A DNA stretch of 64,000 bases from Bacteroidota bacterium (GTDB taxonomy: Bacteria; Bacteroidota; Bacteroidia; NS11-12g; UBA9320), in the NCBI GenBank assembly GCA_016124755.1, contig WGNA01000027.1, forward strand, positions 1 through 64,000, given 5' to 3'. Of the stretch, positions 14,668 to 24,884 are shown one piece after another. Each line of letters starts with the position of its first letter. Within the stretch, counting starts at the first letter, position 1. A program made the translations under genes and the position numbers. Below the pieces are notes generated by a model. The model was not told the origin of the DNA, ran no database searches, and worked only from the letters and a program-made list of their open reading frames with translations.

Positions 14668-15459
14668 TTATTTGAATGCTGAGTTCACTAACAAATAATT
14701 ATTGCCGCTCTTTTTCCAGAGAACTGCAACAATGTGTACGTTTGATTCAACCCAAGACGAATCCAGAAAATCGCCGAGGATGGTTGTTACGACATCGCCG
14801 GCGGCTTTGGCACCAGACTTTAGCGCGTCACCTTTTACGTCGGCAGACATTCTTTTTCTAAGAACATTGTTGTGTTCAAAGTTGCTCAAAGTGCCGGAAG
14901 AAATTGTCTGATCCTGTTTGAGGTTGCTTTCCACCAGATAAACAGAAAGCGTATATTCATCAGAAGTGGCTTCGATAAATTTGGTATTGATAGTCGTACT
15001 GATAGCACCATCTTCAATGTCATTGATAATGCTCAGGGTCGCAGTAGGTTTGAGCGCTTTGTAAGTCTGAATGATGCTGTCTGCAATGTGTTCAAAATTC
15101 ACATTATTCGACATGGCTATAAGCGCCTTTGAATTACCACCAAATATGAGGGTTGGTATCTGATTGTTGTTAAACAGGGTTTGAAACTCATCTCCGTATG
15201 AATTGGCGAAAGGATCTGTACCTGATCCGTTGCCGTGAATTCCAATGTAAGCGAAATCGTTCGGGTATTTGGTTCCTAAATTCTTGACCGCGGGAACCGC
15301 ATAATCACCGCACTCTTTGGCCCATGTTCCCGTAAAGAAAAATCCGGTGGCTACCTGTTTATCACTCGCTGTTGAACTAACCTTAGGAGTTACCTCATCA
15401 TCCTTGCACGAACTGATAATCAACGCCGCACTTAGTATTAAAAGAAAATTGTATTTCAT
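14668..15459 (-). CDS. Omp28-related outer membrane lipoprotein
   Basis: A 263-residue lipoprotein (LIISSC, Cys18). The mature part starts with a thioredoxin-like stretch: FFFTGTWAKECGDYAVPA, then FAYIGIHGNG and QIPTLIFGG, where the Pro after Ile fits the thioredoxin cis-Pro. This matches the Bacteroidota Omp28 family. Only one Cys stands where related thioredoxins have CxxC, so redox activity is doubtful. A second, beta-rich domain fills the C-terminal half. Function is unknown; a surface or outer-membrane location is expected. It is monocistronic with a strong terminator. Confidence 0.78.
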   Translation of the reverse strand: MKYNFLLILSAALIISSCKDDEVTPKVSSTASDKQVATGFFFTGTWAKECGDYAVPAVKNLGTKYPNDFAYIGIHGNGSGTDPFANSYGDEFQTLFNNNQIPTLIFGGNSKALIAMSNNVNFEHIADSIIQTYKALKPTATLSIINDIEDGAISTTINTKFIEATSDEYTLSVYLVESNLKQDQTISSGTLSNFEHNNVLRKRMSADVKGDALKSGAKAAGDVVTTILGDFLDSSWVESNVHIVAVLWKKSGNNYLLVNSAFK

Positions 15460-16762: not shown

Positions 16763-19345
16763 TTAATCTTCTTCCTCTTCTTCTTTTTTGAGGTAGAGTT
16801 TGTTGTCTTTAATTTCAATGTCGATGTAGTTCTGGAAAACTCCGGCACCGATAGTTGCTTTCTTGTCGTCATTCACCATTTTACAACGAACCTTATACAG
16901 GGTTAATCCATCCAGCACAAGTGAATCTAAGCGGAAAGAAGTTGAAGTGAGTTTCGTGCCATCCGGCAACTTGATTTTATCGTTGCCATCGGTGAAGTTT
17001 TCTACTTTCAAATCGCCTGATCTAAACAACTGTTCAACAGTTGACTGCGGGATTTCTACTCGTGATCCGTCCGGATCGTATTGAAGTTTAACCCGCTTAC
17101 GACCAACACTGGCATTAACAAAATATATGTCGCGGGATTTGGTGAGATTAACAATGTCGTACATCTTGGCGAGTTTGATCCGCTCGGCTTCTTCTTCCTG
17201 ACGACGTTTCTCTTCTTCAATCTTTTTAATCTCTTTCTCGTATTCACTTCCGTGATTCTTGATATAATCCTTTCTCGCAGCGATAATAACTTTACTGTAT
17301 ACCGGCCCACCCTCAATGGCAACATTGTTTGTGTCCTGCACTTCGGGGTTACTCCATTGGAATTCGTATTTACAGTTTACAACCTTAACAGTGGTTCTAC
17401 GATTGGCCTGATGTTCCTCCTCAGTACACGGAACAACTTTTCCTCCTTCACAGGCACATTTGTTTGTTAATTGAGACTCTCCATATCCTCTTGCTTCCAA
17501 ACGATATGGGTTAATACCGGCTTGCAGAATATATTGAACCGCGGAGTCGGCGCGCCTTTGAGAGAGATCAATGTTGTACTCATAAGAAGAACGACAGTCT
17601 GTGTGAGAACCCAACTCAATACTCATTTTAGGGTATTTCTTCAGCGTTGCAATGAGATCGTCAAGCACCTTCTTACTTTCCGGTCGCAAGTTCGCCTTGT
17701 CGAGATCGTAATAAATGGGTAGTACAAAAACATCGTCGCATTGATTTTCCAAACAGAAATCCTTTACGTATTCCGCACTTTGTTCAACACCAACTGTGCT
17801 CACAGATTTTGGTTTGGCATCGTAGTAATAATCTTCACGTTTTGAAACGGAGATTTCATAATTTACCTCAGGACGAAGAGGGGCTTCGTAATATCCTTTC
17901 TCATCAGTGTACAGTCTGATCTTGGTCGAATCTTTATCATTAGAGATTTCAACCAATGCACCTTTAATAGGAAGAGTTGATTGACAGTCTGTGATAGTTC
18001 CTTTGAGAATCAGAATTAAAGGAGTCATGCTGAACTCGTAAATATCATCATCTCCACGATCGCGGTTTGATGTAAAGAAACCATGTTCTTTATCGGTGTC
18101 GACGATAATACCAAAGTCGTCTTCCTGAGAATTAATCGGGCAACCCATATTCACGGGTTTTTCCCAATCAGTAGGACTTTCACTTAAGGGTTTAGAATAC
18201 AAAATATCCAAACCTCCGAGAGTTACGTGTCCGTCTGATGAGAAATACAAGGTTCCATCCTCGTGAACGTAAGGGAATAATTCATTTCCCGGAGTGTTGA
18301 TGGTGGGCCCGAGGTTTATCGGAGTGCTCCAGGTTTTACCCCGGCGAACATAGTTCACCACATAAATATCTTTGGTTCTTTCCTTCGGTTCTTTGTCATC
18401 CTGCATACTGCCCGGCATATCGCTCACGAAATACAGTTGCTTGCCATCCGCAGAAAGAGCGGGATGACCGCAATTAAAATCATCGCTACAGAACGGGAGT
18501 GGAACCGGGTTAACCTCCCAGGTTTTTCCTCTTTTTTTGGCTTCGTAAATCTTACAGGTGGAATCTTTTCCGTCGAGGCCGTTGCATTGGGTGAAGTACA
18601 TGGTTGAATACCGTTCATCAAAGGTTACAACTCCTTCGTTATAATCTCCGAAGCCTTCAACTAAAACAGGCTTCTGCCATTTTTCACGACCGCGTCTGCC
18701 TGCTAATTCTGTTATCCAGAGATCTTCGAATTTTCTACCTGTCCATTTGAACTGAGATTTGCTTTCTCCTTCGTCCCGATCTGAAGTGAACATGATAGAT
18801 TCGTGTTTTCGGTCGGCGTATCTTGGAACCCGGTCATCAACTTTGCTCATGTTGGCGGGTTTAAACGATTCTACAATGTAACGGGTTTTTTTATCGGCAC
18901 ACTTTAATGCAAGCTCACATCCTTCAATCAGCCTGTCGACATCCGGATCACCCGGGTTGTTCTTTTTATATTCTTTTAAAATGGTAAGAGCCTGAACATA
19001 CTGACCCTGTTCCATCAGCATTTCCGCCTGTCTGTAATAAATGATTGCATCCTTTCTACCATAGGTAATGGCTTTGGAATACATCTTTAAAGCTTTCTTG
19101 CTGTCGTGGTTTAATCGATATGATTCCCCGGCTTTGAATGCGATTTCTTGTCTTTGGATTTTGTCTAACTCTTTTCCTTCCTTGCTCGAAAGAATCTGAT
19201 CATACATGTCGGCAGCTAAACCATACTGATGTAATCCATAATTTTTGTTGGCTTCCTGAAGGGAAACCTTACATCCTTCGCCAAGCACAAAAACGATGGA
19301 GAGAAGAGTTAGAACGAGAAGAGCTGTTTTACGATGTTTAATCAT
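16763..19345 (-). CDS. PorE-like OmpA lipoprotein with a C-terminal retropepsin-like domain
   Basis: An 860-residue envelope protein. In order: signal peptide with a possible lipid Cys25, TPR-like helices (about 30-130), a WD40/PD40-like propeller (about 160-460, repeats such as SADGKQLYFVSD), a carboxypeptidase regulatory-like domain (about 465-540), an OmpA peptidoglycan-binding domain with NIDLSQRRA (about 555-670), a charged coiled coil, and a final domain of about 120 residues. The first four match PorE, the T9SS-linked periplasmic lipoprotein of Porphyromonas. The tail resembles clan AA aspartic proteases but its DTGA site reads DPDGS. The ATG at 19345 was preferred to a TTG at 19375 because it starts the signal peptide. 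Confidence 0.85.
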   Translation of the reverse strand: MIKHRKTALLVLTLLSIVFVLGEGCKVSLQEANKNYGLHQYGLAADMYDQILSSKEGKELDKIQRQEIAFKAGESYRLNHDSKKALKMYSKAITYGRKDAIIYYRQAEMLMEQGQYVQALTILKEYKKNNPGDPDVDRLIEGCELALKCADKKTRYIVESFKPANMSKVDDRVPRYADRKHESIMFTSDRDEGESKSQFKWTGRKFEDLWITELAGRRGREKWQKPVLVEGFGDYNEGVVTFDERYSTMYFTQCNGLDGKDSTCKIYEAKKRGKTWEVNPVPLPFCSDDFNCGHPALSADGKQLYFVSDMPGSMQDDKEPKERTKDIYVVNYVRRGKTWSTPINLGPTINTPGNELFPYVHEDGTLYFSSDGHVTLGGLDILYSKPLSESPTDWEKPVNMGCPINSQEDDFGIIVDTDKEHGFFTSNRDRGDDDIYEFSMTPLILILKGTITDCQSTLPIKGALVEISNDKDSTKIRLYTDEKGYYEAPLRPEVNYEISVSKREDYYYDAKPKSVSTVGVEQSAEYVKDFCLENQCDDVFVLPIYYDLDKANLRPESKKVLDDLIATLKKYPKMSIELGSHTDCRSSYEYNIDLSQRRADSAVQYILQAGINPYRLEARGYGESQLTNKCACEGGKVVPCTEEEHQANRRTTVKVVNCKYEFQWSNPEVQDTNNVAIEGGPVYSKVIIAARKDYIKNHGSEYEKEIKKIEEEKRRQEEEAERIKLAKMYDIVNLTKSRDIYFVNASVGRKRVKLQYDPDGSRVEIPQSTVEQLFRSGDLKVENFTDGNDKIKLPDGTKLTSTSFRLDSLVLDGLTLYKVRCKMVNDDKKATIGAGVFQNYIDIEIKDNKLYLKKEEEEED

Positions 19346-22960: not shown

Positions 22961-23305
22961 ATGGAAGAGGTAAATAATTCGTGGAAGAAAGTGGTTGAGT
23001 TTTTAAATGACCGCTTTCAAAAACGAATGGATATGAATGCAATTCTCATGATGATCGGAATTCGGGAATTGGGGCAGGTTCGTGATAAATTCACCAAAGA
23101 GGAAAAAGTACGCCTTATGCATATCGCGATTTGCCGGATCTTCAGCCCATCAGGTTATTACGAATTAAAAGGAGTAAACCACAAAGGCTGGCCGCAATGG
23201 GAAAAAGTAAAAGATCTTCCGTTCGGCGACGTCTTTGACCAGGAAGGGCTTCTTCGCCAACACATCGTGGAGTATTTTTCGGAAGAAGGATTAATTGAAT
23301 TTTAG
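22961..23305 (+). CDS. conserved hypothetical protein, 114 aa
   Basis: A small soluble protein with no signal or membrane segment. It has an N-terminal helix (WKKVVEFLNDRF), a middle stretch MNAILMMIGIRELGQ and a C-terminal HIVEYFSEEGLI. I do not recognise a named domain; its composition is that of an ordinary cytoplasmic protein. It stands alone on the plus strand, divergent from prfA by 60 bp, and its stop overlaps that of the convergent transglycosylase gene by 4 bp. The ATG fits the gene spacing. Confidence 0.72.
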   Translation: MEEVNNSWKKVVEFLNDRFQKRMDMNAILMMIGIRELGQVRDKFTKEEKVRLMHIAICRIFSPSGYYELKGVNHKGWPQWEKVKDLPFGDVFDQEGLLRQHIVEYFSEEGLIEF

Positions 23306-24243
23306 TCCTGCGATGAGGATGAAAGAATTTCCGGAAGTGAAATGATTACGCTATCTCCCGATCGAATGGTAAGGTGATCGTCCCGAATCCACGGATTGAG
23401 CAGTTTTATATCCCGGTACGTGGTTTTGTTTTTTAGAGCAAATTCAGCCAGATCAAAAATTGTTGTGTCGATTTTTACCTCGTATACCTGAACCGGCTTG
23501 TAAAAATCTTTAGTATTTATTTCAAATCCATATTCATGCGGATGTTCCGAAATGAGTTTTAGTGCTAAAATCCGGAACACATATCTGCTCGTTTCGGTAT
23601 TGAGATATAAGTCGTAATAATTCGAAACTTTTTGACTGCTCACATCTCTTTTTATTCCGCTCAAACCTCGGTTATATGCGGCTGCGGCGAGTGTCCAGGT
23701 TCCAAGATCCGACTTGGCTTTTTTAAGATATTTACAGGCAGCTCTTGTGGATTTTACCAGATCGTAGCGTTCGTCGATTTCCGTACTAACTTTCAACCCG
23801 TAGCTGTCGGCAGTTCCATCCATAAACTGCCAGATGCCTTTGGCTCCGGAAGATGAAACCGTATTGGTTAAACCGCTTTCGGCTAATGCGAGATATTTAA
23901 AATCATCCGGTACACCTTCCTCTTTCAGCACTTTTTCAATTTGCGGAAAATATCTTCCTGTGCGCTTCAACATTAATAATGTATTCGATTGCCAATACGC
24001 ATTTACGGAGAGTTCTTTATCGAGTCGTTCTAAAACATTCCAGTCTGCCAGCGGAACCGATTCGTCTGCAAAAGACAATTTCTCGGGAATTCGGGTTGAC
24101 CGGATCATATACGAATCAGCGGAAATCTGATTTGATTTTTCTTCTGAACTACCGGTGCTTAAAGAAATAAGCAGAAAGGCGGTTGACACTAAAATCAAAA
24201 TCGAAGGAAGTGTGGAACCCGTAATTTTTTTAAGTGTTTTCAT
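23302..24243 (-). CDS. MltD-type lytic transglycosylase
   Basis: A 313-residue exported protein with one N-terminal hydrophobic segment (residues 13-30). The SLT domain is intact: LALAESGLTN with catalytic Glu122-Ser123, GAKGIWQFM, and AAAAYNRGLSG. A C-terminal LysM-like stretch (YEVKIDTTIFDLAEF, then LLNPWI) probably binds glycan. It cleaves the MurNAc-GlcNAc bond to give anhydro ends. It is last in a likely operon hscA, beta-barrel gene, this gene; its ATG shares one base with the previous stop. It is a useful intact comparison for 10623-11834. Confidence 0.88.
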   Translation of the reverse strand: MKTLKKITGSTLPSILILVSTAFLLISLSTGSSEEKSNQISADSYMIRSTRIPEKLSFADESVPLADWNVLERLDKELSVNAYWQSNTLLMLKRTGRYFPQIEKVLKEEGVPDDFKYLALAESGLTNTVSSSGAKGIWQFMDGTADSYGLKVSTEIDERYDLVKSTRAACKYLKKAKSDLGTWTLAAAAYNRGLSGIKRDVSSQKVSNYYDLYLNTETSRYVFRILALKLISEHPHEYGFEINTKDFYKPVQVYEVKIDTTIFDLAEFALKNKTTYRDIKLLNPWIRDDHLTIRSGDSVIISLPEILSSSSQD

Positions 24244-24884
24244 CAGAAAAAGACTTTAATATCAAAGGTGAAATTCCGGATCGTTTGCATTTTACCTGTT
24301 GCCGGATAAACATTTGGTAAATTCAGGTTGTCATTAATGTTCAGGAGTCCGAACTTAAATTCCGGTTGTATTCCGAGATAATAAAAATCAAAGTGATAAC
24401 CGACACATCCCGACATATCGAATCGTTTGAATCCGATGTTTCGATATGTTGCCACAAAATCAGGATTTACATAAATTTCGGATTGAAGCAAATAAGCGGG
24501 TTCTACACCCAAAACCAAATGCTGATCTTTTTCTTTTCCACTGGTATTAATGAAGAGGTTCACCGGAAAATCCATGTAAACAAACTTGACCCGACTGTAA
24601 AACGATTCCTGTGAATGCTTAAAATTGGAACCCCGCAGTGAGAATGCAACCTCCGTGAGTAATTGAAAATTATCTCCGAGTTGCTGGCGGTAATACGCAC
24701 CAATTACACTACCCATTTTAATGGAAGGATCTTCCAGTTCTTTCCCGTTGATTCGGGTAATGTTCAGGCCGAAGTCAACTCCCAGATGAAACTTTTCCTT
24801 GTCCTTAAAATACTGAGAATAGCCGGGAACAGCCTGTATCGCCAGAAAGAAAAGTATTAGAATTCCTTTGTTGATTCTGTTCAT
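24243..24884 (-). CDS. outer membrane beta-barrel protein (PorT-like/OMP_b-brl_2 type)
   Basis: A 213-residue protein with a signal peptide ending GYSQ. The mature part alternates hydrophobic and polar residues in short strands (FHLGVDFGLNITRI, LLTEVAFSLRGSN, YLGIQPEFKFGLL) and ends in an aromatic residue (KVFF), as outer membrane barrels do. It resembles the small beta-barrel family common in Bacteroidota. Function is unknown. It lies 20 bp after hscA, and its TGA overlaps the transglycosylase start by one base. Confidence 0.72.
   Translation of the reverse strand: MNRINKGILILFFLAIQAVPGYSQYFKDKEKFHLGVDFGLNITRINGKELEDPSIKMGSVIGAYYRQQLGDNFQLLTEVAFSLRGSNFKHSQESFYSRVKFVYMDFPVNLFINTSGKEKDQHLVLGVEPAYLLQSEIYVNPDFVATYRNIGFKRFDMSGCVGYHFDFYYLGIQPEFKFGLLNINDNLNLPNVYPATGKMQTIRNFTFDIKVFF

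Follow-up and report, generated by a model that had tools for sequence, protein, structure and literature searches.

A predicted retropepsin-like domain without the catalytic motif at the C-terminus of PorE-type proteins in an order of Bacteroidota

The PorE-type gene and its neighbourhood

The window, i.e. the whole 64,000-nucleotide stretch analysed here, contains at 16763-19345 an open reading frame with an ATG start that encodes a PorE-type protein of 860 residues; the gene and all features of the protein described below lie on the (-) strand. The N-terminus is composed of a predicted signal peptide with a probable lipobox reaching to Cys25 (VLGEGC-KVS; 19271..19345), in which the cysteine is preceded by a hydrophobic stretch and conforms to CKxS, the consensus among 19 PorE relatives. 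The mature N-terminus after Cys25 is similar to that of P. gingivalis PorE (PMC7192894). It is followed by a TPR domain at residues 29-151 (18893..19261), recognized by Pfam TPR families and as helices in the full-length AlphaFold2 model, and by a PD40/WD40-like β-propeller at residues 156-440 (18026..18880; PF07676, E = 7e-15) and a carboxypeptidase-regulatory-like domain (CRD) at residues 445-534 (17744..18013; PF13620, E = 2.7e-7), both of which appear as strands in the model. The PF13620 (CarboxypepD_reg) score of 31.3 bits is slightly below the Pfam cut-off of 32.3.

The OmpA_C-like peptidoglycan-binding domain occupies residues 541-657 (17375..17725; PF00691, E = 4e-16), and its top match among PDB sequences is P. 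gingivalis PorE (6TOP, E = 4e-18). Residues D583, N591 and R598 align with D576, N584 and R591 of the P. gingivalis protein, which contact the peptidoglycan stem peptide in 6TOP, and all three are invariant across 19 relatives. The succession of TPR, PD40, regulatory-like and OmpA domains in the PorE order, which had been proposed in a sequence-only reading of this DNA, is therefore borne out by Pfam and by the full-length model. Beyond the OmpA domain, the protein continues with a disordered linker at residues 661-684 (17294..17365), where the pLDDT of the AlphaFold2 model is low at 662-680, a single long charged helix of 44 residues predicted at 685-728 (17162..17293), a domain of about 125 residues at 729-853 (16787..17161), hereafter referred to as the tail, and an acidic C-terminal end, EEEEEED, with the stop codon (16763..16786).

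Among the NCBIfam families, the window protein scores highest with T9SS_PorE (NF052230), at 437 bits, below the curated cut-off of 600, and second highest with CHU_0125 OmpA (NF053607), at 383 bits, below the curated cut-off of 620. The NCBIfam model of the latter, an OmpA-like protein of Cytophaga hutchinsonii from the same multi-domain family as PorE, stops at the OmpA domain, and CHU_0125 itself has a role in outer-membrane integrity (PMC5891637). The window protein is the top PorE match in its own genome, the runner-up (312 bits) coming from a distant paralogue clade. The same genome, of 4.05 Mb, encodes the T9SS components SprA (2395 bits) and GldM (299 bits), together with at least 150 matches to Por_Secre_tail, the C-terminal signal of T9SS. 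Because the NF052230 score is 437 rather than 600, we label the protein PorE-type and not PorE sensu stricto; its role in T9SS is assigned from architecture and homology.

The gene order GSIII-PorE-PurM is common to the window and its closest relatives. At seven tail-less Bacteroidota loci, two tandem PorE paralogues of about 690 and 650 aa are located downstream of GSIII, and at one of these (L047) PurM comes next after the pair. The first paralogue, PorE-a, clusters with the window PorE (support 98), and the second, PorE-b, forms a separate clade; a search of the window's genome yielded no PorE-b-like match. The window lineage carries a single tailed PorE where its relatives have two tail-less ones.

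Two other features of the neighbourhood were recorded. An Omp28-family gene is found at 14668-15459, between PurM and RlmN; since RlmN begins about 1.2 kb past the PurM start in five relatives, this gene seems to be an addition in the window lineage. At 23302-24884, a lytic transglycosylase (SLT) gene shares a one-base overlap with an outer-membrane β-barrel gene and adjoins DnaK.

Fold of the tail and its former active site

When the tail was folded by AlphaFold2 with nine homologues, the resulting model (pLDDT 89.9, pTM 0.80) resembled retropepsins. In a Foldseek search against the PDB, nine chains of the Rickettsia retropepsin APRc lead, with E-values from 5e-8 (5C9F) to 1e-5, and the next ranks are taken by a B. 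fragilis endopeptidase, Ddi1, HIV protease and pepsins. VIA-align superposes the tail on 5C9B with a Z-score of 10.7 over 115 residues (rmsd 3.9, 15% identity). APRc is also on top in a profile search of PDB sequences, with a weak E-value of 0.012.

At the level of sequence families, the window tail by itself has no relevant match in Pfam or NCBIfam, whereas the tails of its relatives do. The Asp_protease_2 model (PF13650), run on relatives, finds three PorE tails at E-values of 2e-4 to 5e-4, slightly below its curated cut-off. Among 19 tails scanned alone, 10 match gag-asp_proteas (PF13975), with a best E-value of 1.2e-5, and 9 match Asp_protease_2. Comparison of the tails with canonical domains from related genomes by hhalign gives a probability of 95 and a score of 52.8, against at most 24.5 for 30 column-shuffled controls and 12.3 for the reversed one; one free-standing DSGAS protein from the same genome family is matched at a probability of 97. 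The E-values of such comparisons refer to a single pair and not to a database.

The missing family match of the window tail could be taken to mean that it is some other small β fold merely resembling clan AA. We consider this very improbable because the structural comparisons (Foldseek and VIA-align) and the sequence comparisons (Pfam for the relatives, hhalign and the profile search of the PDB) agree on retropepsins. The clan AA assignment made in the sequence-only reading thus holds, and structure prediction and profile comparison both lead to the pepsin-retropepsin families. Judging from the predicted model and these profile matches, the tail is a retropepsin-fold domain homologous to clan AA, and we describe it as a pseudo-retropepsin.

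The two strings on which the earlier assignment relied, YDPDGSRVEIP and TIGAGVFQNYIDIEI, are both present in the window protein. In our alignment of 96 distinct tails with 18 canonical domains, the position of the DTGAS active site is taken in the window tail by DPDGS, at residues 757-761 (17063..17077). The D[TS]G triplet is found in 0/96 tails vs 16/18 free-standing homologues, the window tail reading DPD. The first position of the triplet is Asp in 68/96 tails and N, T, E, V or I in the other 28; Gly is found at the third position in 0/96, and the fifth position of the former site is Arg or Lys in 76/96. A psi-loop-like element, T831-I832-G833 (16847..16855), is aligned at the hydrophobic-hydrophobic-Gly position. 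Its Gly is retained in 93 of the 96 tails, and its first residue is often polar (TLG or TIG, the latter in the window).

An Asp757 at the catalytic position of the window tail, and an Asp in 68 of the 96, might suggest that the tail is still a protease working through an unusual active site. We find this hardly credible, as no tail has retained the Gly of the D[TS]G triplet and the Asp itself has been replaced in 28. The description of the tail as a degenerate aspartic protease was correct in this respect, and the alignment places it with the non-peptidase homologues of clan AA and not with the active retropepsins.

The closest solved fold over the whole window tail is that of APRc/RC1339 of Rickettsia conorii (5C9B, 5C9D, 5C9F). 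APRc differs in that it is enzymatically active, has a DTGA site and is predicted to contain three transmembrane segments, whereas the tail is joined to PorE and reads DPDGS at this site. The RloA retropepsins of Pseudomonas are a secreted or periplasmic bacterial form of the fold, but they act as DTGA-containing dimers and cut sequences rich in glutamate (PMC12239564). The closest sequence relatives of the tails outside PorE are free-standing retropepsin-like proteases of Bacteroidota (TIGR02281-like, PF13975/PF13650), with which they share the helix, the D-F motif, the D-G turn of the flap and the Gly of the hydrophobic-hydrophobic-Gly element. These proteases differ from the tails in having DTGAS or DSGAS, and they occur either by themselves or in fusion with TPR or FKBP-like sequences, none having been found on a PorE.

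Distribution, selection and descent

A search with a profile of 19 tails found the tail in 94/108 genomes of the order, including 60/64 of high quality, and in 23/24 genera. The reading frames that carry it nearly always measure about 850-1090 residues, with most of the shorter ones lying near contig ends. Among 395 genomes sampled across the class, 15 belong to the order, and all 15 have the tail. Of the matches outside the order in this sample, all but the two weakest were read, and none of these is on a PorE; each is either a separate protein or joined to TPR or FKBP-like sequences, and nearly all have DTGAS-type sites. The tail is carried by PorE homologues across the order, and we found no PorE with it elsewhere in the class.

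P. gingivalis PorE (PG1058/PGN_1296) has the same order of TPR, propeller, CRD and OmpA domains without the retropepsin-like tail, ending at residue 672 directly after OmpA (PMC7192894). Tail-less relatives stop 23-66 residues past the reference point at the OmpA end, compared with about 200 or more in proteins with the tail. It had been right, then, to regard the tail as an extra to an ordinary PorE. A literature search on PorE in combination with retropepsins or aspartic proteases, which mostly did not extend to subscription papers, returned nothing relevant.

The dN/dS values of the tail in close pairs are 0.01-0.20, mostly < 0.1, and somewhat above those of the other PorE domains, indicating that the fold is maintained under purifying selection. 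In quick tree searches, the tails form one group apart from the free-standing proteases (SH-aLRT 98), divided by the two families. A tree computed from the PorE part can be reconciled with one clade of tailed PorEs, but at a weak support of 33. Because the tails group together and are split by family, the data fit one fusion followed by vertical descent.

These observations also bear on whether the tail is a passive relic or spacer, i.e. a domain that is tolerated and stays folded merely to prevent aggregation. Such a status would be compatible with its faster evolution relative to the other domains and with the variable residue (D, N, T, E, V or I) at the first position of the former triplet. 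It is difficult to reconcile with retention in nearly all high-quality genomes and genera, with the low dN/dS, with the presence of tail-specific conserved residues and with one duplication, and we regard it as improbable. The absence of the tail from 14 genomes of the order is not accepted as loss: among the two negatives examined closely, the PorE of one (G046) overruns the available stretch and is incomplete, and the best PorE-type match of the other (G052) is another paralogue.

Possible role of the tail

The conserved residues specific to the tails are concentrated around the putative flap. This segment, K792-F804 (KLPDGTKLTSTSF; 16934..16972), is identified as the flap from the alignment. 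K798 and F804 are tail-specific, being at least 89% conserved in both tail families where free-standing proteases mostly have I, V or L, and F784 and K792 are likewise highly conserved in tails. Dimerisation or binding, the role suggested for the tail in the sequence-only reading, is in keeping with the purifying selection and with these conserved flap residues. We favour the view that the flap and cleft serve in binding because this conservation is specific to the tail, the domain is under purifying selection and catalysis has been lost. Several points count against it: the hydrophobic residues F784 and F804, although conserved, could serve the fold alone, the dN/dS of the tail exceeds that of the other PorE domains, the NF052230 score falls short of its cut-off, and the support for a clade of tailed PorEs is 33.

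By homology to P. gingivalis PorE, the OmpA domain of the putative lipoprotein would hold peptidoglycan, and the TPR domain and propeller would face T9SS components. In P. gingivalis, PorE is co-purified with the Sov translocon (PMC8754138); according to PMC7192894, its interaction with T9SS components is still to be tested. A retropepsin-like protease domain may have been joined to the PorE C-terminus in the common ancestor of the order, the catalytic DTG being lost before the two families diverged and the fold being retained by selection. The tail, presumably located in the periplasm, would then serve for docking, without catalysis, at the end of PorE that is bound to the wall. Its reshaped flap and cleft, comprising K792, K798, F804, F784 and, in most members, a basic residue at 761, could grip a peptide segment of a partner and so connect PorE to another T9SS or envelope protein. 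What was once an enzyme now probably serves the secretion machine as a binding component, and the whole account, a DTG-less retropepsin-like domain fused to PorE as a docking module, is the one we lean towards with guarded confidence.

The main alternative is that the tail is a homodimeriser, with two PorEs paired in the manner of retropepsins. Bacterial retropepsins are dimers (PMC12239564, PMC4140852). Tandem tails can also be read in this way: in part of family f2 (six members), PorE is about 1000 aa long and extends about 340 residues past OmpA. The two copies there are the usual tail, which comes last, and an upstream one that matches the tail profile with a score of 45.5 vs at most 17.5 for shuffled controls, so that the latter is probably a second, more diverged tail copy. 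The two would constitute an intramolecular pair as in pepsins. The locus offers a further argument, in that a homodimer could stand in for a heterodimer where relatives have GSIII-PorE-a-PorE-b vs GSIII-PorE-PurM in the window lineage. However, the DTG loop, which is at the dimer interface of the active enzymes, has disappeared from every tail, and the upstream copies matched neither clan AA in the PDB profile search nor, in direct profile comparison, the canonical proteases. The coiled coil described before the tail in the sequence-only reading corresponds in the window to the charged helix 685-728, but this is confined to the window's closer relatives, the long charged run being absent in family f2 and genus g4. 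A conserved coiled coil as a general dimeriser is thereby ruled out, and we consider self-pairing through the tail a possible but rather unlikely role.

One may speculate further that the order swapped the two-paralogue system of PorE-a and PorE-b for just one PorE, in which a domesticated dead retropepsin mediates self-pairing or the grip on a partner; in one sub-lineage this domain would have been duplicated to an intramolecular pair. This scenario seems to us quite unlikely; if true, the replacement of PorE-a/b would represent a lineage-specific rebuilding of the attachment of T9SS to the cell wall.

The host order consists mostly of uncultured Bacteroidota, and PorE presumably ties T9SS to the cell wall. 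An extra domain that is conserved across the order and removable provides a handle on the contacts of PorE, since one could delete it on its own or employ it as bait. It would also be a clear example of a retropepsin-like protease that has lost its catalytic motif and is retained as a structural element within a protein of a secretion system.

Retropepsin-like domains with altered sites were also observed outside PorE. A TPR protein of another family (L125, reading frame from position 808) contains two of them, the first with a degenerate DFGCD and the second with DTGAA, and is possibly another pair of a dead and a live retropepsin. In a further TPR protein (L127), the retropepsin-like domain has DTVAS in place of DTGAS and is perhaps inactive.
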